Position numbers and translations under genes: made by a program. A stretch of 64,000 nt of DNA from Chondrosia reniformis. Lineage: Eukaryota; Porifera; Demospongiae; Chondrillida; Chondrillidae. The notes beneath the pieces were generated by a model. It was given only the letters and a program-made list of their open reading frames with translations. It did not search any database and had not been told where the DNA came from. Position 1 is the first letter of the stretch. Each line of letters begins with the position of its first letter. The DNA lies in the NCBI GenBank assembly GCA_947172415.1, contig OX359201.1, positions 5,692,501 to 5,756,500 of the forward strand. Direction: 5' to 3'. Below are positions 9,473 through 57,294 of this stretch, one piece after another.

Positions 9473-12400
9473 CTAGATGAGCCGTTCCTTAGCAACTTCA
9501 TTTATAAAGTGTAATTTAGATGCAATATCTAATTCTTCCCTGCTGGGACTGTAAGCTCCAAATCTTTCTTTCTGCTTGCGCAAGCGATAAGTTATTAGTT
9601 TAATTAAGAGAAGTACAAAGAGTATAATTAAAACAAGAGCTATAATACCTGCAATGGTGATACCAGCTATACTACCAGATGCATTTGGAGTGGGGCTGTA
9701 GATGTGGCAAAAAAGACCACTATATTCCTGAGGACATTGGCACTTAAATGTGCCCAATAAATTAATGCAACTTCCACCATTTTTGCAAAGGGTTGATGAT
9801 TCATTGCACTCATTAATGTCAGTTTCGCAGAATCTTCCAGTAAAGTTTCCATTACAGGAGCAACTGTAGTTCCCTACTGTGTTTACACAGGTACTGTTAT
9901 TATCACAAAGGTGCAGTCTACTACTACACTCATTGATATCCTCCCCACAGAATTGACCGGTGTATCCTGGAGAACACTCACACGTGTAAGAGCCAACCGT
10001 GTTTACGCAATTTCCAGTATCTAATCTGCACTCATGCAAATTTAAAGTACATTCATCCATGTCACTATCACATGTTTTGCCCTGAAATCCCGTATCATTA
10101 CAGTTACAAGAAAAATCATTGACCCCGTCAGTACAAATCCCACCATTTTCACAAGGATCCAACAGGCATTCATTAATGTCTATTGAACAATTTGACCCTG
10201 TATATCCAGGAGAGCAGTTACACATATAAGCATTAATTTTGTCTTCGCAGGCACCTTCATTCAAGCATGGATTTGGAATGCAATCATTTATATCATCTTC
10301 ACATGTCTGACCAGTGTAACCAGGAGAACACGCGCACGTAAAAGCATTTATACCATCGGAACAGCTGCCATTGTTTTTACAGGGGGCGGGGTCACATTCG
10401 TCAATGTTAAGGGTACAATTTCTACCATCCCATCCAGGAACACAGTCACAGGTGTAATTGGCAACCAAATTGTTACAACTACCTCCATTTTGACAAGGAT
10501 TTATGATGCAATCATCAATATCGATGTCACAATTCCTTCCTTCATAGCCACTGCCATTAATACACAAGCAGGTATAATTGTTAACCAAATTAATACATGC
10601 TGCTCCATTTTGACAAGGTTCTAAAACCTCACATTCGTTGATATCCTGTTCACATAGACCACCTGAATACCCACTGTAGCAGCTGCAAATAAAGCCACCC
10701 ACCATATCAATACAATCTCCATTCACACAAGGGGCCATAGAGCATTCATCAATTTCTTCATCGCAAAAGGCTCCAGTGAAACCGATAACACAGTGACAAG
10801 TGAAATTGTTGAAACCATCTTCACAGATACCAAATTCTCCACAGGGATTGTTTACACAATCATTAATGTTTATTTGACATGATTCACCAGTAAATCCTGT
10901 CACACAAGAACATGAATAGTTATTGACCAAGTCAAAACAGCTGCCACCGTTTAAGCATGGATTTATGGCACATTCATCTATGTTGTTCTCACAATTAGTT
11001 CCATTGTACCCTATAACACATTGACAGGCATACGAACCAATCTGGTCAATGCAGGTGCCCCCATTCATACAAGGCTGAGGTGAACACTCATCAATATCCT
11101 CTTCACATAATTCTCCGGTGTAGCCATGGAGACAGGAGCAAGTAAAGTTGTTAATACCATCAATACAGGCTCCACCATTGAGACACGGATTAGGCTGGCA
11201 CTCATCTACATTTATCTCGCATACAAGACCACTATAACCAGCTTGACATTGGCACTTGAACCTACTCCCTTCATCTACACATGTTGCATTGTTAAGACAT
11301 GGGGACGGAGCACACAGATCTAAGTCCACTTCACATTGTAATCCAGTGTAACCAGGGTAACAGGTACATTCATATGAGGCCAATAAATCTGCATCAATTT
11401 CAGAAGTGACATTTGTTGAATTGCCAGTATTTTCACAAGTGCCATTTAGACAGGGATCCATTGAACAGGGATCAAATAAAATTTCACAATATCTTCCCGT
11501 AAAAGCAGGTTCACAGATGCACAAGAAGTCACCTTGTACATCTACACAAGTAGCCTGGTTAATGCATGGCATGTCTCCACAGTCTGGACCCAATCTCTCT
11601 GTACAATTCTGTCCTGTAAATCCATCAAAACAGTCACAACTGAATCTTCCTATTTCATCAACACACACACCATTCTGACAGGGATCTGGAACACATTCGT
11701 TAATCTCATCCTCACAATTCCTCCCAGTATATCCAACATCGCATTCACAAGTATAGTTATTAACTAGATCAATACATTTCCCCTTGTTACAAATGCTCGG
11801 CAAACACTCATTGATATCTTCCTCACAGTTAAAACCACTAAATCCATCTTCGCATACACAGTTATAAGATCCAATATCATCAATACAAACACCATTGATA
11901 CAAGGCCCGTCAATACATTCATCAATCTTGCTGCTACAGTTAAGGCCTTCAAATCCTATATCACACATACAGGTGTAGCTATTAATACCATCTGTACAAT
12001 TTCCATACACACATGGATTTGATGCACAATTGTCAATGATGGATTTGCAAGATTCTCCAGTGAAATCCTCAGCACAAACACAAGTATAGCTATTCAGACC
12101 ATCTATACAAGTACCATTTCCACAATCAACCTCTATACAATCATCAATATTAACAGTACAATTTTTACCCGTATATCCCTGAAGACATTGACACTCAAAG
12201 TCATCAATAAGGTCTATGCAAGATGACCCATTTGCACAAGGTGAAGAAAGGCATTCATCAATGTTTATCTCACAATAGTCTCCCTCAAAACCAGAAAGGC
12301 AAACACAGGCTGTCAGTGCACTAAGAGTTGCATTCCCTATATCCTCTACTGATATGCAAGTGGCTCCATTCAGACAAGTACAATTATTGCAAGTTTCAAA

Positions 12401-15400
12401 ATCCATTTCAAATTCACAAAGGTTACCATAGAAACAGTCTACACAGTCACAGCTGCCTTCAAAACAGGTTGCATTATTTTGACAGACAATGCCTGCACAT
12501 GGATCTACCACTTCATCACAAAGTACCCCAGTGAACAGAGGAGGGCATTCACAGTTAAATGTTCCATTACCAGCTGAAATGCAATTGCTGTCCCCAAAAC
12601 AGGGATTACTGAAACAAGGATTAATTATGTCCTCACACAATGCTCCGGTAAATCCACTTTCACAAGTGCAGTAGAACGAGGCTATATCATCTGTGCAGGT
12701 TCCATTGTTGAAGCATGGATCACTGTCACAGTCATCAATATTTATTTCACAGAAGTCACCAGTAAAGCCCGTAGGACAAAAACAAGCAAACGATTGAGCA
12801 GAACTAAAACAAGTTGCTCCATTTTCACAGGGATCATCAGAATCACAGGGATCAACATTTACTTCACAGATGGTCCCAGTAAATCCTGTAGGACAGTCGC
12901 AGAAGAAGGCAGAGACAAGACTAACACAGGTGGCATTATTTAAACAAGGCTGTGAAGAACACAAGTCAACAATATCCTGGCAGGTGTCGCCAGTATATGG
13001 CTGGGTACATAGACAGACGTAACCATTGGCAACATTGACACAAGAACCGTTATTTCTACATGGCAAATCACTGCAAAAATCCACCATAAATTCACAGCTA
13101 GCACCTGTATACCCAGGAATACACTGACAGATATAACCACCGTTGTCTTCTTCACAGGTAGCATTGTTTTGGCAAGGGTTAGACTCACATGGGCCAATCA
13201 CATCGCTACAGTTAGTTCCAGTGAAACCCGGAACACATGAACATATGTAGTCTTCACTTCCATTTGGTGTACAAGTACCATTGTTAAGACATGGATTAGC
13301 ATCACAAGGGGCTGTTGCTATGGTGACATTGCACAATAGTCCAGTATATCCAGCCATACATGAGCAGGTAAAGCCACCATCAAGAGTTCTGAGGCAAGTG
13401 CCATTATTGTAACATGGCTGAGATAGACAGGGATCTTGTGGAAGAAGAGACTCACAGGTTTCTCCAGTGTAGCCTTCTGAGCACATACAACTGAAATTAA
13501 TACTGTCTGGAACACAGCTGCCATTGTTCAAACATGGTCGATTATCACAAGGGTCTGTAGTGACAAGACTCTCACAGTTAACACCAGTAAAGCCTTGCCT
13601 ACAATTACAGGAGTAAGCAGGGATGGTGATTGCATCATAGAACAGTGTCAGGTTCATAATGATGGTATCATTAGTCAGACAGGTAGCACCATTTTGACAA
13701 GGAGAGTGTGAACAGTCAATAAAGAGTAACACTTCACAAAAAGAGCCTGTATATCCTACAGGGCATATGCAGGCTATATCATCACCTATTTGTATACAAG
13801 TACCATTGTTATCGCAATAGTCATTTAGACAAGAAGAAGGTGCTATCTCAACAGAACAGTTAAAGCCAGTAAAACCATTTGGACAAGCACAGATGTATGA
13901 TCCGTTTGTGGCCATGCATGTTCCGTTGTTGGAGCAGGGAGGCGGACTGCAAACATCAGGAATGACCCTAACTTCACAAGCACTGCCAGAATAGCCTTCA
14001 GAACAGCGACAAGTACCAAAAGACCCATTAACTATACAAGATCCATTATTCTGACACATTATTTCATCACATGGATCAACTGTTGTCATAGTTTCACATG
14101 ATGCTCCTGTATATCCTTCATTACACAAGCAGATTGCTACAGTACCATTAACTATACAAGATCCATTGTTCTGACACACTATTGCATCACATGGATCAAC
14201 TGTTGTCATAGTTTCACATGATGCCCCTGTATATCCTTCATTACACAAGCAGATTGCTACAGTACCATTAACTACACAAGATCCATTGTTCTGACACATT
14301 ATTTCATCACATGGATCAACTGTTGTCATAGTTTCACATAATGCCCCTGTATATCCTTCATTACACAAGCAGATTGCTACAGTACCATTAACTACACAAG
14401 ATCCATTGTTCTGACACATTATTTCATCACATGGATCAACTGTTGTCATAGTTTCACATAATGCCCCTGTATATCCTTCATTACACAAGCAGATTGCTAC
14501 AGTATCATTAACTATACAAGATCCATTATTCTGACACATTATTTCATCACATGGATCAACTGTTGTCATAGTTTCACATGATGCCCCTGTATATCCTTCA
14601 TTACACAAGCAGATTGCTACAGTGTCATTAACTATACAAGATCCATTATTCTGACACATTATTTCATCACATGGATCAACTGTTGTCATAGTTTCACATA
14701 ATGCCCCTGTATATCCTTCATTACACGAGCAGATTGCTACAGTATCATTAACTATACAAGATCCATTATTCTGACACATTATTTCATCACATGGATCAAC
14801 TGTTGTCATAGTTTCACATGATGCCCCTGTATATCCTTCATTACACAAGCAGATTGCTACAGTACCATTAACTACACAAGATCCATTGTTCTGACACATT
14901 ATTTCATCACATGGATCAACTGTTGTCATAGATTCACATGATGCTCCTGTATATCCTTCATTACACAAGCAGATTGCTACAGTATCATTAACTACACAAG
15001 ATCCATTGTTCTGACACATTATTTCATCACATGGATCAACTGTTGTCATAGTTTCACATAATGCCCCTGTATATCCTTCATTACACAAGCAGATTGCTAC
15101 AGTACCATTAACTATACAAGATCCATTGTTCTGACACACTATTGCATCACACAGGTCAACTGTTGTCATAGTTTCACATAATGCCCCTGTATATCCTTCA
15201 TTACACAAGCAGATTGCTACAGTACCATTAACTACACAAGATCCATTGTTCTGACACATTATTTCATCACATGGATCAACTGTTGTCATAGATTCACATG
15301 ATGCTCCTGTATATCCTTCATTACACAAGCAGATTGCTACAGTATCATTAACTACACAAGATCCATTGTTCTGACACATTATTTCATCACATGGATCAAC

Positions 15401-18400
15401 TGTTGTCATAGTTTCACATAATGCCCCTGTATATCCTTCATTACACAAGCAGATTGCTACAGTACCATTATCTATACAAGATCCATTGTTCTGACACACT
15501 ATTGCATCACACAGGTCAACTGTTGTCATAGTTTCACATAATGCCCCTGTATATCCTTCATTACACAAGCAGATTGCTACAGTACCATTAACTATACAAG
15601 ATCCATTGTTCTGACACACTATTGCATCACACAGGTCAACTGTTGTCATAGTTTCACATGATGCCCCTGTATATCCTTCATTACACAAGCAGATTGCTAC
15701 AGTACCATTAACTACACAAGATCCATTATTCTGACACATTATTTCATCACATGGATCAACTGTTGTCATAGTTTCACATGATGCTCCTGTATATCCTTCA
15801 TTACACAAGCAGATTGCTACAGTACCATTATCTATACAAGATCCATTGTTCTGACACACTATTGCATCACACAGGTCAACTGTTGTCATAGTTTCACATA
15901 ATGCCCCTGTATATCCTTCATTACACAAGCAGATTGCTACAGTACCATTAACTATACAAGATCCATTATTCTGACACATTATTTCATCACATGGATCAAC
16001 TGTTGTCATAGTTTCACATAATGCCCCTGTATATCCTTCATTACACAAGCAGATTGCTACAGTACCATTAACTACACAAGATCCATTGTTCTGACACATT
16101 ATTTCATCACATGGATCAACTGTTGTCATAGTTTCACATAATGCCCCTGTATATCCTTCATTACACAAGCAGATTGCTACAGTACCATTAGCCACACAAG
16201 ATCCATTGTTCAGACACATTACTGCATCACACGGGTCAACTGTTGTCATAGTTTCACATGTTGGTCCAGTAAAATTGGATGAGCAGAGACACTCAAATAC
16301 AGTTGCATTATTAATGAGAACACAGGTCCCTCCATTTTTACAGGGCTGGAGGTCACAGGGACCCAAGGCTACCTCACAGGTAGGGCCAGTAAACTGGTCA
16401 CTACATGTACAGGAGACTCCATTTTCTATTTCCATGCAAGTACCATTATTCCGACAAGGCTGGTCAGAACAGTTACTTATTAAACTCTCACAAGTTAGAC
16501 CAGTGTAAAGGGAATGACAGAGGCATTGGAAGCTCCCATTTTCAGGAACACAAGTTGCATTATTGAGGCAAGGTCTAGTCTCACAAAGATTGATAACCTC
16601 TTCACATCTATCTCCACTATATCCATATGAACAATTGCAAATCGATGTTGTACCATTAAGAGCTGTACATGAACCATTGTTTAAGCAGGGCTCCCTTTCA
16701 CAAGGACCAAATTCACATTTATCGCCAGTGAAACCTGTGAGACAAGTGCAATTGAAATAATTAACGCCCTCAATACAACTTCCACCATTTGAACAGATTC
16801 CGGGTAGGCAGTCAATAACATCATTCTGGCATTGGTCTCCCGTATATCCACTTTGACAGAGACAAGTAGCACTGTCTAATTCATTGATGCATGTTCCTCC
16901 ATTCTTACAAGGCTCAGGGTTAATCAAGGTAGCAAAATAACAGTGGTTAATATCATTGCATGTTTGTCCTGCAAGGGTTTCCTGGCAGGAGCAGAAGAAA
17001 GTACCATTTAAACTTTCACAAGTATTTCCCGGGCCACATGGATTAGAATCACAGAAATCAACAATATTTGAGCAGTCTGGCCCCGTAAAACCTGGTAGAC
17101 ATGTGCAAGTGTATCCATTAACACCATCAGTACAGTTGCCTCCATTTTGACAAGGCATGTCAGTACAATCATCAATATTAATTTCACAATTTGTCCCAGA
17201 AAAGCCTTCAGAGCAGAGGCAGGTAAAACCAGTTACATTAGCAAAGCAAGTTGAATTTACACTACATGGATTGTCAGCACAGAAATCTATTTCAGTATCA
17301 CAATAGTATCCGGTATAGCCTTCTGGACAAATGCAGCTTACATTTGTACCCGGGATGCACTCCCCTCTGATACAGGGATTTGAGGCTTCACACAGGTTGT
17401 ATACATTATCACAAGTTGTACCATTGTAACCAGGGAGACAGCTACAAATAAAGTTGTTCTGTACAAAATTTGAATCAACTGCACCATCAGTCTCATTGCA
17501 GCTGCCTCCATTCAGACAAGGCATGTGACCACACGTTACCAAGGTAACCTCACATTCATCACCAGTGTATCCATTAGGGCACACACAACTGTAACTAGCT
17601 ATCCCATCTATACAGGTAGCATTGTTCAGACACGGTTCTGAGATGCAGTCATTTATATTTATAGAACAATTTTCCCCTCTAAAACCATCAAGACACTGGC
17701 AGGTATAGCTGGTTATATCATCCACACATGTTCCTCCATTTTGACAGAGATTGGGGTGAGTACAAAAGTCTATATCTACATCACATAGGATACCAGTGAA
17801 ACCTTCCTGACACTGACAAGTAAAGGAAGCCAGACCATTCACACAGGAGCCATTTTTACATGGATCAGAGAGACATTCATCAATATCATCCTCGCAGAAT
17901 CTTCCAGTAAAACCATATGGGCAAATGCATTGGTAATTGCTAACATTGTTAGCAGCACAGGTTCCGTTGTTCATGCAGGTCACACCCTCACAGGGACTGA
18001 CTTCAGTTTCACAGAGACTACCTGAAAATCCAAAGGGACACTCGCAAGTGAAGGAATTTAGACCATCCGTACAGTTACCCTTGTTAAGACAAAGATTGGG
18101 AGAGCAGTCATCTATATTGATGTCGCAATCCTCACCAGTCAAACCAGCAATACAGGAACATTGCCTATCAAAGAATATATCCATACATTCTGTACTATTT
18201 GAAGGACAAGGTGATAGTGTACATGAATCTGGTGGATTGCAGCCAGGTCTCACTCCCATGGAGAGCACTTGAATGTTCTCTGTGTCCTGAAAGAATTTGA
18301 CTCTTATTCCAGACAACTCTACTCCCCTCATGCATCCTTTAAAGTGACTATCAGTTATAGACTCTGCAAAAGGAATTATGTTATTGTTACATTCACCAAA

Positions 18401-21400
18401 CAGATTAACTTTGAATAGCAATGTTTTGTTATTTCTTATGTTATCATAGATATTATGTTTGTTTATCATTCCGTGATAATCAACAACAAATACCAACATA
18501 CGTACATAAAAGGGAAAAATTAAAGTGATAGTTGTCGGGAAATCAGAACTATTGAATGTTACCACTAATACAAATGAAGCAATCATTTAGACTGCAATTT
18601 GAAATAATTTGTCAAACTTTTCCTAAAAGAGGACATGATCAAAATCATATTCTGTTGAATTGCCCTGATTAATCATGTAATTGGGACATGTAACTATTCA
18701 CTTTACTGAAATCTTATGCAGCTATAACATACGTACCCTGAATTCTAATGTGTTCAAAATCAGCAAATCCTCCGATGTGGATATAGGCCACACCATTCTG
18801 GTCAACATCTAGGGAAGTGAAACTCCCAGGTATCGTACCATGCTGAGGGGCTGTGTCATCGACTATTAATGAAATGTCCATCAAGCTCTGGCTCCACCTT
18901 ACTGTATGCCATTGACCGTCTGTCACATCCACATTGTGATATACTCGCCCAATGCCTATGCAGAACACATAAAGTTTTGTATTATTAAGAGAAATACTCA
19001 AATCAATTCCTGACCCATAATCATGTTATAAATAGTAATAAATACGTACATACATACAGTACTATAGTTACTGGAACAAGACAACTAAAGTTGAAATGCT
19101 AAGCAAAAGAGGTAAGCCAAAGTGAACACTCCAAATTTGATATCAGAAATGTAATAGAAGGTAACACCTTATTTGGTAACATTAGACTGTTTATTTTAAT
19201 CATTAGTGGTAAGTGTATTTCAAAAGTAGCACAGTGCCATGGTAACACTATAGGGGCTTTCCCTTTTGTTTTGTATATTATCTTAGCCAAATACTCAATT
19301 GTATCTACAGAAAAAGGGTTATATTAATATGGCCTTACTTACCACGTCCTAGGTCTACTGAAAGGACTAGCTCACTGTCGGACACTTCTAGAGAGAGAAA
19401 ATCATTTGAATCAGGCACCCCAATTGGTTGCCAGCCGATGTGAAGGAGGAGAGCCTGACTGTCCCTTGTCCTGAAACCCAATTCACCTTCACCTGTAAAT
19501 TCTTCCAGTGTCAGATCATATTGATAGCGAATGTAGCTTGCCTCTCCATCAAAGGTTATCGAGTTGGCTACACATAAAATCAATAAATAGCAGTCAGTAA
19601 TGTACCATCAACAGTTTATGTTAATATTTAATATGCCTATACGTTATATTACCCTAAGTTAACATATACGTATCTGCATCCAATTACAATTAACAATTAC
19701 CATTACTGCAACAGCAGTGATTCAGGTACGAAGCTCCACTTATATTTATTTACACAAACAAAGCATGTCAATACTTCATAAAATATCATTTACACATAAT
19801 AATTATGTATACGTACATACTTATAGTAGGATTGAAGTGATAAGAATAGCTACAGTGTAGTTGAATTCATAATTCAAAGTAGAAATTGAATGCTTTGACC
19901 CGCAGGTCATTAATTGCTGATGAAGACCTCCGAGGCTGATATGTTCAATTTCTGCTAATACGTATCTCTTTCGCTGATGCTCAAGCATTCTAATTACCAT
20001 TATAGTACAATTCCTATGTGTGGTATTATATAACAAACCAGTATTATCCTCTATATACTGGTGCATACCTTGGCTGCAGTTAATTCCAGTGTAATCCAAA
20101 GGACAGTCACATGTGGCTCCTGTCCAATCGGATAAGCAAGTACCTCCGTTAACACAGACATTGGGTGTGCAGTGATCCTCCCTTGGACAGTTGGGTGTGG
20201 CAGTGGGTGGATCATTGGAGGAAAATGGCATCCCAGATGGCATCAGTGAAACTGCCTCATTTTGAATATAGAAATCTCTGACGCAACCTCCGAAACTCTG
20301 CAGACTCGGGGGGAGAGGTATGCTAATGAATAGGCCATCCCTTTGCAGCTCTGGTACCAAGTTGGTGAGACTACCAAAGAGGATTGGTCCATATGCGGGA
20401 TCACCTGAGTGAGGTAAAGTGACATCACAGCTAGGATCCAAACATGGCTGACAATTTGAGAGTGTACAAGTGGCACTTGAATTTAATCTCATTGAGACAG
20501 AATCATCATTAAAGCTTAGAGTAACCTGATGCCAATCTCCGTTGCTAAGGTTACTCCCCACCTGACCAGAATGAGAGTCTCCAAGGGAGATATGAAGAAT
20601 CCCCATTTCCAAATAGAGCAGAAATTGGGAACTAGGAAAAGTAGCCTAAATTTGAATCAAGAAAATAAGGATGGTATGTCTAAGTCTATATTTATGTGTA
20701 GCCCTACATTCTTAGACATTACTAATAAAAGGTACTTACGTTAGCAGAATATGCTAGAATTCCATCTGACCAGAGAGTTGTAAATGAAAATATAATCTCA
20801 CTCAGCAGCTGTCCTGACGTGCTGGGGATTTGAAGAAAGCTATCATTGGCAAAGTTGGCTAGATTTTGATCTGTGCAGTTGGATCCCATGAAACCAGAGG
20901 AACACTGGCAGGAATATGTGAACCACAGATCCATGCAGATGCCATTATTCTGGCAAGGATTAGGTGCACAGACCATCTCCCTCTGTGAGCCAATGTCCAC
21001 ATTTCTGTAGCCCAGGGAACTGAAAGGGTTCAAGTCTGTGGGAATGTTATTCACCGCCAGATCCCCCACCACTCCAATGAATGTTGTTATAGGTGTAACA
21101 AGGTGACGGCTACTCTGACTGGTAGAGTAATTTAATCCTCCAATTAACAGGATACCTTGTGTGTTTAGTGACGTCAAGCTACCTCGTGATTGTGCAACTC
21201 CATAGCAGCTACCTCTTTGGCACATTCTGTTGTCCACAGCAACTTCTACTTGTTGGTTGAAGGTTCCTATCTCAAGTACATGGAGGGCTCCATCAGCCAG
21301 ACCCTCTCCAACTGTGACCTGTGCTGCTCCCCCACCTGGGTCGTACCTTACTACCAGAGCACTGTCAACAAGCTGAACTGACAGCAGATCACCATTGCTC

Positions 21401-54873: not shown

Positions 54874-54882
54874 TATATATAA
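54874..54882 (+). promoter_or_regulatory. TATA-box candidate upstream of the IL-17-like gene
   Basis: tatatataa lies about 90 bp before the start codon at 54972, a plausible distance for a core promoter with a 60-nt leader. TATA-like runs are frequent in this AT-rich DNA, so weight is low. Confidence 0.35.
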
Positions 54883-54971: not shown

Positions 54972-55481
54972 ATGTATTTACTTGTTCTTTTTGCAGTTGT
55001 GGTTGCCCCAATTCTGGGAGAACCACTGCCAATGGCGAGTCACTTTCCAGCCTGTTTAAGAGGTACTATAAATAGCCAACTGCATCAAGTAATTGTGAAT
55101 ATAAGCTATACTAGTCCACACAATGCATTTGGTGAGTTATTGAGGACACCAGGTCCAGCAAGCCAGAACTACACCGGATGTGAAGAACCTTCAGAATGGG
55201 AAGGTAGCCAGGATCATCCATACAGCCGGGCAATCTGTTCATGGAACTATGAATGTGACTATGATTATTATAGAGTACCACAGTTTATATTTCATGCCAA
55301 ATGCAGTAATGACATAATACAATTCAGGAAAAACTCAAGATTAGGACTCTGTCAGTGTAAGCCTGTGCATAGACTTATACCAGTTCTGAGGTATGTCAGT
55401 TGCGATTCTACAACTAATCAACAAGAATGGAAGATGGAGAACCAATATGTGGCTGTTGGATGTATCTGTCATTCAGCATAA
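54972..55481 (+). CDS. IL-17-like secreted cystine-knot cytokine candidate
   Basis: IL-17 proteins are secreted dimeric cytokines with a cystine-knot-like fold. This intronless 169-aa frame starts with a signal peptide (MYLLVLFAVVVAPILG). Its C-terminal half carries the family signature: W91-N, then D, R101, P103, I106, A109-K110-C111, in WNYECDYDYYRVPQFIFHAK followed by Cys. In human IL-17A the corresponding [20 protein letters not shown] followed by Cys has identical spacing from W to C. Next come C127/C129, PVHRLIPVLR (IL-17A PIQQEILVLR), C144 and the end YVAVGCICHSA (IL-17A LVSVGCTC). There are ten cysteines in all, and N-glycosylation sequons at NIS and NYT. An acceptor-like 'ctttttgcag' lies inside the signal-peptide codons, so a spliced 5' end is possible, but no upstream coding exon was found. 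Length and architecture fit the family (about 150-200 aa). Confidence 0.82.
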   Translation: MYLLVLFAVVVAPILGEPLPMASHFPACLRGTINSQLHQVIVNISYTSPHNAFGELLRTPGPASQNYTGCEEPSEWEGSQDHPYSRAICSWNYECDYDYYRVPQFIFHAKCSNDIIQFRKNSRLGLCQCKPVHRLIPVLRYVSCDSTTNQQEWKMENQYVAVGCICHSA

Positions 55482-56606: not shown

Positions 56607-57294
56607 TTATGTAGCTACTGCAGCATCAGGCCTAGGCCTGGGGAAGTTACCACACTGAGGAAATGACTGTGGAAATGCAGGGATCTTTTCCTTACGCTCT
56701 TCAACAACCATTGCCATACCCTCTAAGAGATGTGGTTCTATATGGCAATGGAGCCTGGGTTATCATTTCTGAAGCGAATAACAACATAACCACCAGGGGG
56801 TACAATAACAGTGTCTTTCATTGGAGCAAAATCATTATTTGTATCAAATGGTCGTTTTCCATTAGTCCACTTTACATCATAGTCACACAGGTCATTTGTG
56901 CACTCCATTTCAGCATTGGTGCACACTGAATTAACATCATTGCTACAATTTCCATACCCAACATGCACTACATGGAAATGATGTCCATGAAGATGAACTG
57001 GATGAGCTTGATGCTGACTTATAGGAAGGAAATTCTGGAATACCATTTCAGTTACACCATTTTTGTTTCATATATGTGAGTGCATCTTCTGCCTCTCTCA
57101 TTTTCCATACGATTATCATGCCTGCAGACTTGTGCCTTTGCAGTACCAGTTTTAATCCATTCTTCATACTGTGGTACCAATAGACTAGAGGAAATCGTAT
57201 TCCATGCAGAATAAGGACTCTGAGCGGAAATATTCTCAAAGGGAGAGGTGAAAAGGAAAAGCAACAGGACAAGCAGCTCTCTTTTGGTCTCCAT
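56607..57294 (-). pseudogene. Laccase-like multicopper oxidase, broken
   Basis: Laccase-type multicopper oxidases bind four copper ions through HXH motifs. On the minus strand a signal-peptide-like start (METKRELLVLLLFLF, 57294) runs to 57052. A second frame then gives GVTEMVFQNF and QAHPVHLHGHHFHVVHVG, the copper-binding HPXHXHG motif of the C-terminal cupredoxin domain, and APMKDTVIVPPGGYVVIRF. After RNDNPG the frame shifts: HCHIEPHLLEGMAMVVEE, the HCH copper motif and axial-ligand region, follows in another frame, ending at a stop at 56607-56609. The residues normally between NPG and HCH are missing. The middle of the enzyme (about 400 aa) is also absent. No splice sites repair these steps, so this looks like a decayed copy with a large internal deletion, unless the assembly is wrong. 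Confidence 0.75.

Follow-up and report, generated by a model that had tools for sequence, protein, structure and literature searches.

A gene that we regard as almost certainly a true IL-17 family ligand gene is present in Chondrosia reniformis, a demosponge of the subclass Verongimorpha. It lies in the stretch of 64,000 nucleotides analysed here (the window; C13:5692501-5756500), in a genome that comprises 15 contigs and 117,379,552 bases (the published one, at 117.37 Mb, is described as consisting of 14 chromosomes and a mitochondrial genome: PMC12181767). Our overall reading, to which we give a probability of about 0.85, is that the gene encodes a demosponge IL-17 cytokine, one of at least 14, which would be secreted as a knot dimer and would act through a Death–SEFIR adaptor. 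The most interesting point is that this expanded ligand family and the adaptor are both in the genome, and a receptor was not found by exon search.

The main features of the gene are as follows.

54874..54880 (+), TATA-like element, 98 bases upstream of the ATG (weak, since the DNA is AT-rich; listed with no control for chance)
54972..55481 (+), IL-17 family ligand gene, single exon, 169 aa plus stop (open frame; Pfam IL17; intact single-exon paralogues)
54972..55019 (+), probable signal peptide, residues 1-16 (hydropathy only; cleavage site placed by eye)
55233..55469 (+), IL17 domain, residues 88-166 (Pfam)

The frame, with 169 codons plus a stop and an in-frame stop directly before the ATG, is exactly that of the original prediction, which had also called its product secreted; an N-terminal hydrophobic stretch is indeed present, as judged by hydropathy only (12-residue maximum of 3.12 at residue 4, the maximum further on being 0.88). 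An acceptor-like sequence, cttgttctttttgcag, is found at 54981-54996, i.e. within the first codons of the frame. A reading of these codons as a splice acceptor, with a false ATG, was rejected on account of the closest paralogue (C14:914 kb), which codes homologously over the same stretch (LLVLLAVAAAPILGG vs. LLVLFAVVVAPILGE), and because of this homologous coding we prefer to read the window gene as a single exon starting at the ATG at 54972.

Nine neighbouring frames in the window were scanned with Pfam, and four gave matches: to EGF repeats, to a PfkB-family kinase, to part of a multicopper oxidase and, below the cut-off, to a piece of CNH. The multicopper oxidase frame (56738-57046, – strand) stops early inside the domain, and the gene looks broken by eye. 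The EGF-repeat frame (9473-18586, – strand) is open for 3037 residues and contains many near-identical repeats in tandem, which are possibly expanding by unequal exchange.

We place the window protein in the IL-17 family because it matches Pfam IL17 and because there are PDB matches to IL-17F and IL-17A. The Pfam profile search, which the original prediction had proposed as a check, gave an E-value of 4.9e-11 and 43.3 bits (cut-off 24). Used singly against the PDB, the protein matched IL-25 (1.4e-5) and IL-17A (0.016), and a profile of 13 sponge members matched IL-17F (2.4e-7) and IL-17A (2e-6); 25 of the 26 matches of this profile were IL-17s, the remaining one being a RIFIN at 0.19. In a Pfam scan of 13 aligned members, which left out the C14:344 kb paralogue, all 13 matched IL17 at E up to 1 (best 1.5e-12). 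The motif WN-x5-D-x2-R-x-P-x2-I-x2-AKC occupies residues 91-111, and did not arise once when the protein was shuffled 20,000 times. When the protein is aligned with IL-17A, the block from W91 to AKC runs without gaps at the IL-17A spacing, PVHRLIPVLR faces PIQQEILVLR and VGCIC faces VGCTC, as had been claimed for all three. Among the 14 paralogues the strict motif is confined to the window protein, and a looser form, C-x-[WF]-x9-R-x-P-x2-[IM], is found in 13. AlphaFold2, run with no alignment on the whole window protein and on residues 81-169, gave mean pLDDT values of 39.0 and 41.7, respectively, which are too low for the models to be used. The proposal of an IL-17-type cytokine gene in a probable sponge has thus held, as to family by the Pfam and PDB profile searches, and as to host by the identity of the organism as a demosponge.

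At least 14 loci of IL-17 type are distributed over five contigs. C14 carries nine of them (a lone one at 130 kb and two sets of four, at 342-348 kb and 914-940 kb), C3 has two, and C13, C11 and C5 have a single locus each. The 14 are the union of 13 matches from a genome search with the window protein and 12 from a genome search with Pfam IL17; in the latter, 11 loci passed the cut-off, one fell just below it and two (C3:2435 kb and C14:344 kb) were unlisted. A later search gave 21 matches, comprising the same 14 loci and seven weak ones that were dropped (E 0.07-0.36, internal stops), and two further genome searches for family members gave no locus beyond the 14. All 14 are single exons, open from the Met through the IL17 region, and in each the N-terminal stretch is more hydrophobic than any later one, by hydropathy only (the weakest case being the C14:130 kb gene, at 1.68 vs. 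1.34 later). Core identity among the paralogues is 21-66%, save for one pair at 91%. Three sister pairs have dN/dS values of 0.42 (dS 0.22), 0.19 (dS 1.35) and 0.28 (dS 2.31), the last two at dS above 1 and so near saturation, and purifying selection is shown to act on these sister pairs. The paralogue tree has 11 inner branches, of which two are well supported and seven are open. Sites resembling kB were seen within 600 bases upstream of 4/14 genes, the window gene not being among these; like the TATA and ATTTA motifs, they come from a listing with no control for chance, and we attach no weight to them.

The window protein has ten cysteines (28, 70, 89, 95, 111, 127, 129, 144, 164 and 166); the one given earlier as C88 is C89, a small error of numbering. 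Those that concern the knot are listed here.

55236..55238 (+), C89, facing the serine of S-P-W in the IL-17A alignment (present in 14/14 paralogues)
55356..55358 (+), C129, facing the serine of N-S-V-P in the IL-17A alignment (present in 14/14 paralogues)
55302..55304 (+), C111 of AKC, putative partner C164 at 55461-55463 (both present in 8, both absent in 6, discordant in 0/14)
55350..55352 (+), C127, putative partner C166 at 55467-55469 (both present in 11, both absent in 3, discordant in 0/14)
55179..55181 (+), C70, putative partner C95 at 55254-55256 (both present in 11, both absent in 2, discordant in 1/14)

By the usual nomenclature we take C89 to be knot cysteine 1 and C129 to be knot cysteine 4. 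Non-chordate IL-17s are described as having two cysteines, forming a third knot disulfide, at positions where chordates have serines (PMC4517768; PMC8353272), and the extra cysteines are thereby partly explained. The original prediction held that these could give disulfides not found in vertebrate members; not all of them are oddities, since C89 and C129 fit the reported non-chordate pair. C95 appears from coupled loss to pair with C70. Among the seven other aligned cysteines, 3 of the 21 possible pairs show coupled presence, with Fisher values (uncorrected for kinship or for the number of tests) of 0.0003 for C111–C164, 0.0027 for C127–C166 and 0.033 for C70–C95, the next pair being at 0.54. 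For C127–C166, the C-terminus of the C3:2435 kb paralogue was read ungapped; the MAFFT gap gives 1/14 discordant and a p value of 0.033 instead of 0.0027. On the weakly supported tree there were about two to three loss events per pair, and tandem paralogues share losses, which are not independent. The coupled losses nevertheless support these three pairings as the probable ones, and C111–C164 is a known IL-17 pair. Of the four conserved knot cysteines (two disulfides), C111, C164 and C166 are at their IL-17A places, and the cysteine that IL-17A has five residues after AKC is missing there, which suggests that C127 may do its work. C144 is missing from two of the 14 paralogues, and C28 cannot be assigned to a clear column of the alignment; a dimer link through these two, which we model on IL-17A, is speculation. 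A separate observation concerns the four tandem paralogues at C14:342784-348128, all of which lack both C111 and C164 and form a subgroup with a reduced knot.

The solved structures of IL-17A and IL-17F are those of the human proteins, and vertebrate IL-17 genes contain introns. The sponge protein shares with them the IL17 domain and the VGCxC end, and with IL-17A the WN...AKC spacing; it differs from both in having the additional C70 and C95 and in being encoded by a single exon, and from IL-17A in having cysteines (C89 and C129) in place of serines and in possessing C127 rather than a cysteine five residues after AKC. With the IL-17s of molluscs, annelids and other invertebrates, as these are described, it has in common the third knot disulfide pair, a C-P-W-like motif and tandem expansion (PMC4517768; PMC8353272), the difference being that the sponge family belongs to the phylum Porifera.

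How might such a ligand signal? A search of the genome for a SEFIR-type IL-17 receptor had also been proposed, and it led elsewhere: the only SEFIR exon found (C4:8085815-8086204; E 6.5e-7 in the Pfam SEFIR search) is part of a two-exon Death–SEFIR gene at C4:8085141-8086327, which is, to judge from its sequence, an adaptor rather than a membrane receptor. The exon scores 35.0 bits with SEFIR (cut-off 23; 2.2e-8) and is also over the cut-off for TIR_2 (30.7 bits vs. 28; 4.8e-7), and the Death-domain exon (3.5e-6) lies upstream of it, with a frame-keeping GT-AG joining judged by eye. Neither Pfam SEFIR nor the sponge SEFIR as query disclosed a second SEFIR gene or a SEFIR membrane receptor in a six-frame exon search, which may miss split domains, and the IL-17R extracellular domains IL17R_fnIII_D1, IL17_R_N and IL17R_fnIII_D2 gave no match in the genome, in searches made without a positive control. 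A TIR search gave eight matches at E up to 1, five of them over the cut-off, including the C4 gene; the other four are on C7, C11, C10 and C2. On C2, Death (barely over the cut-off) and TIR exons lie about 1.5 kb apart and, assuming that they form one gene, are likely to represent MyD88. At C10:7515200-7519114, exons for Ig, a hydrophobic stretch and TIR occur in a row, an arrangement that we take to be like that of sponge Ig-TIR receptors. There are also three exon matches to the NF-kB RHD on C10. A placozoan protein with both domains of the C4 adaptor, Death and SEFIR, has been compared with MyD88 and with the CIKS adaptors that serve IL-17 signalling (PMC6321704); it comes from another phylum, and its likeness to the C4 adaptor concerns the domain make-up. 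Of three ctenophores, two are reported to have SEFIR (PMC11797021).

These observations can be assembled as follows. The protein would be secreted and would fold as a cystine knot held by C111–C164, C127–C166 and C89–C129, with C70–C95 as an outer bond; by analogy with IL-17A it may form dimers, perhaps via C28 and C144. It would act as an epithelial or immune messenger, the signal passing from a receptor to the Death–SEFIR adaptor on C4 and from there probably to NF-kB. We give this route through the adaptor to NF-kB an even chance.

Other explanations of the ligand genes have to be weighed against this. The fold class is common to IL-17 and to growth factors of the Spaetzle, PTTH and neurotrophin type, and from Drosophila there is a report of IL-17 domains in proteins that carry the annotation prothoracicotropic hormone (PMC8353272), so the protein might be another such cystine-knot growth factor that came to resemble IL-17 by convergence; but Pfam finds no family besides IL17 in the window protein at E up to 10, none of the four other families matched by single members in the scan of 13 is a growth factor family, and the gap-free block from W91 to AKC has the spacing of IL-17A, which together make convergence extremely improbable. 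An origin of the genes by contamination, or by horizontal transfer out of a bilaterian, would accord with the empty published searches of one other sponge, Amphimedon (PMC4517768 and PMC8353272). It is nevertheless very improbable, given that at least 14 copies, as diverged as described above, are spread over five chromosome-scale contigs, and that the cysteine pair is of non-chordate type. Also against it are the animal-like EGF-repeat protein among the neighbouring frames and the outcome in the viral and prokaryote collections (no animals among them), where 40 and 46 stretches, respectively, matched a pattern and none was confirmed as a relative.

A third alternative accepts the homology and questions the role: these could be real IL-17 homologues with a function other than SEFIR cytokine signalling, whether as antimicrobial, matrix or self-recognition proteins or as ligands of an Ig-TIR receptor. 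The failure of the exon search to find a SEFIR receptor, the Ig, hydrophobic-stretch and TIR exons that lie side by side on C10, and the paralogues that lack C111 and C164 (6/14) or C127 and C166 (3/14) all speak for this, whereas the presence of a Death–SEFIR adaptor, of a make-up likened to CIKS adaptors and MyD88 (PMC6321704), speaks against it, and on balance we think it rather unlikely. The reading of the window gene as a cytokine gene of the IL-17 family is the one that we prefer. A more specific version, which we offer as a distinctly doubtful one, is that the sponge genes have retained IL-17 in an early form: a complete six-cysteine growth-factor knot with one of its ring cysteines at C127, two positions ahead of C129, in a ligand family that works without a SEFIR membrane receptor, other receptors (e.g. 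Ig-TIR) feeding the Death–SEFIR adaptor. If this were true, the ligand and adaptor would be older than the IL-17 receptor.

A 2015 paper found no IL-17 in Amphimedon queenslandica (PMC4517768), and a 2021 paper likewise found none there, regarding Cnidaria, with 11 genes in Pocillopora and three in Nematostella, as the oldest phylum to possess IL-17 (PMC8353272); a June 2026 review, citing the 2021 paper, gives IL-17 as absent from Porifera (PMC13337447). The authors of the 2021 paper also refer to a single IL-17 domain from Amphimedon that has been deposited in Pfam and that they could not recover. Known by this description, the entry (A0A1X7VXB1, 359-442) resembles the Chondrosia protein in being a sponge IL17 domain, and differs in that its position places it within a longer protein. 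The label 'IL-17 signalling', which is used in expression studies of sponges (PMC8242945, PMC7882143, PMC9335075), names a KEGG pathway and, in the text available, no IL-17 gene. Among the matches listed in the literature searched, where subscription journals and preprints were thinly covered, we found no published sponge IL-17 gene. The sponge result contradicts what is in print, and may already sit unnoticed in databases.

The original prediction held that a ligand in a non-bilaterian would move the origin of the family to early animals. IL-17s of non-bilaterians were already in print for cnidarians (PMC8353272), and the new step is that from Cnidaria to Porifera: an expanded and constrained IL-17 family in a second demosponge contradicts the statement that IL-17 is not present in this phylum. 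If the genes were vertically inherited, the ligand would already have existed before sponges parted from cnidarians and bilaterians, and the knot with six cysteines would be the older state, lost by chordates. The IL-17 immune messenger may thus have arisen very early in animal evolution, and a sponge, as a microbe-rich animal with neither gut nor nerves, would offer a setting for studying the first role of IL-17.
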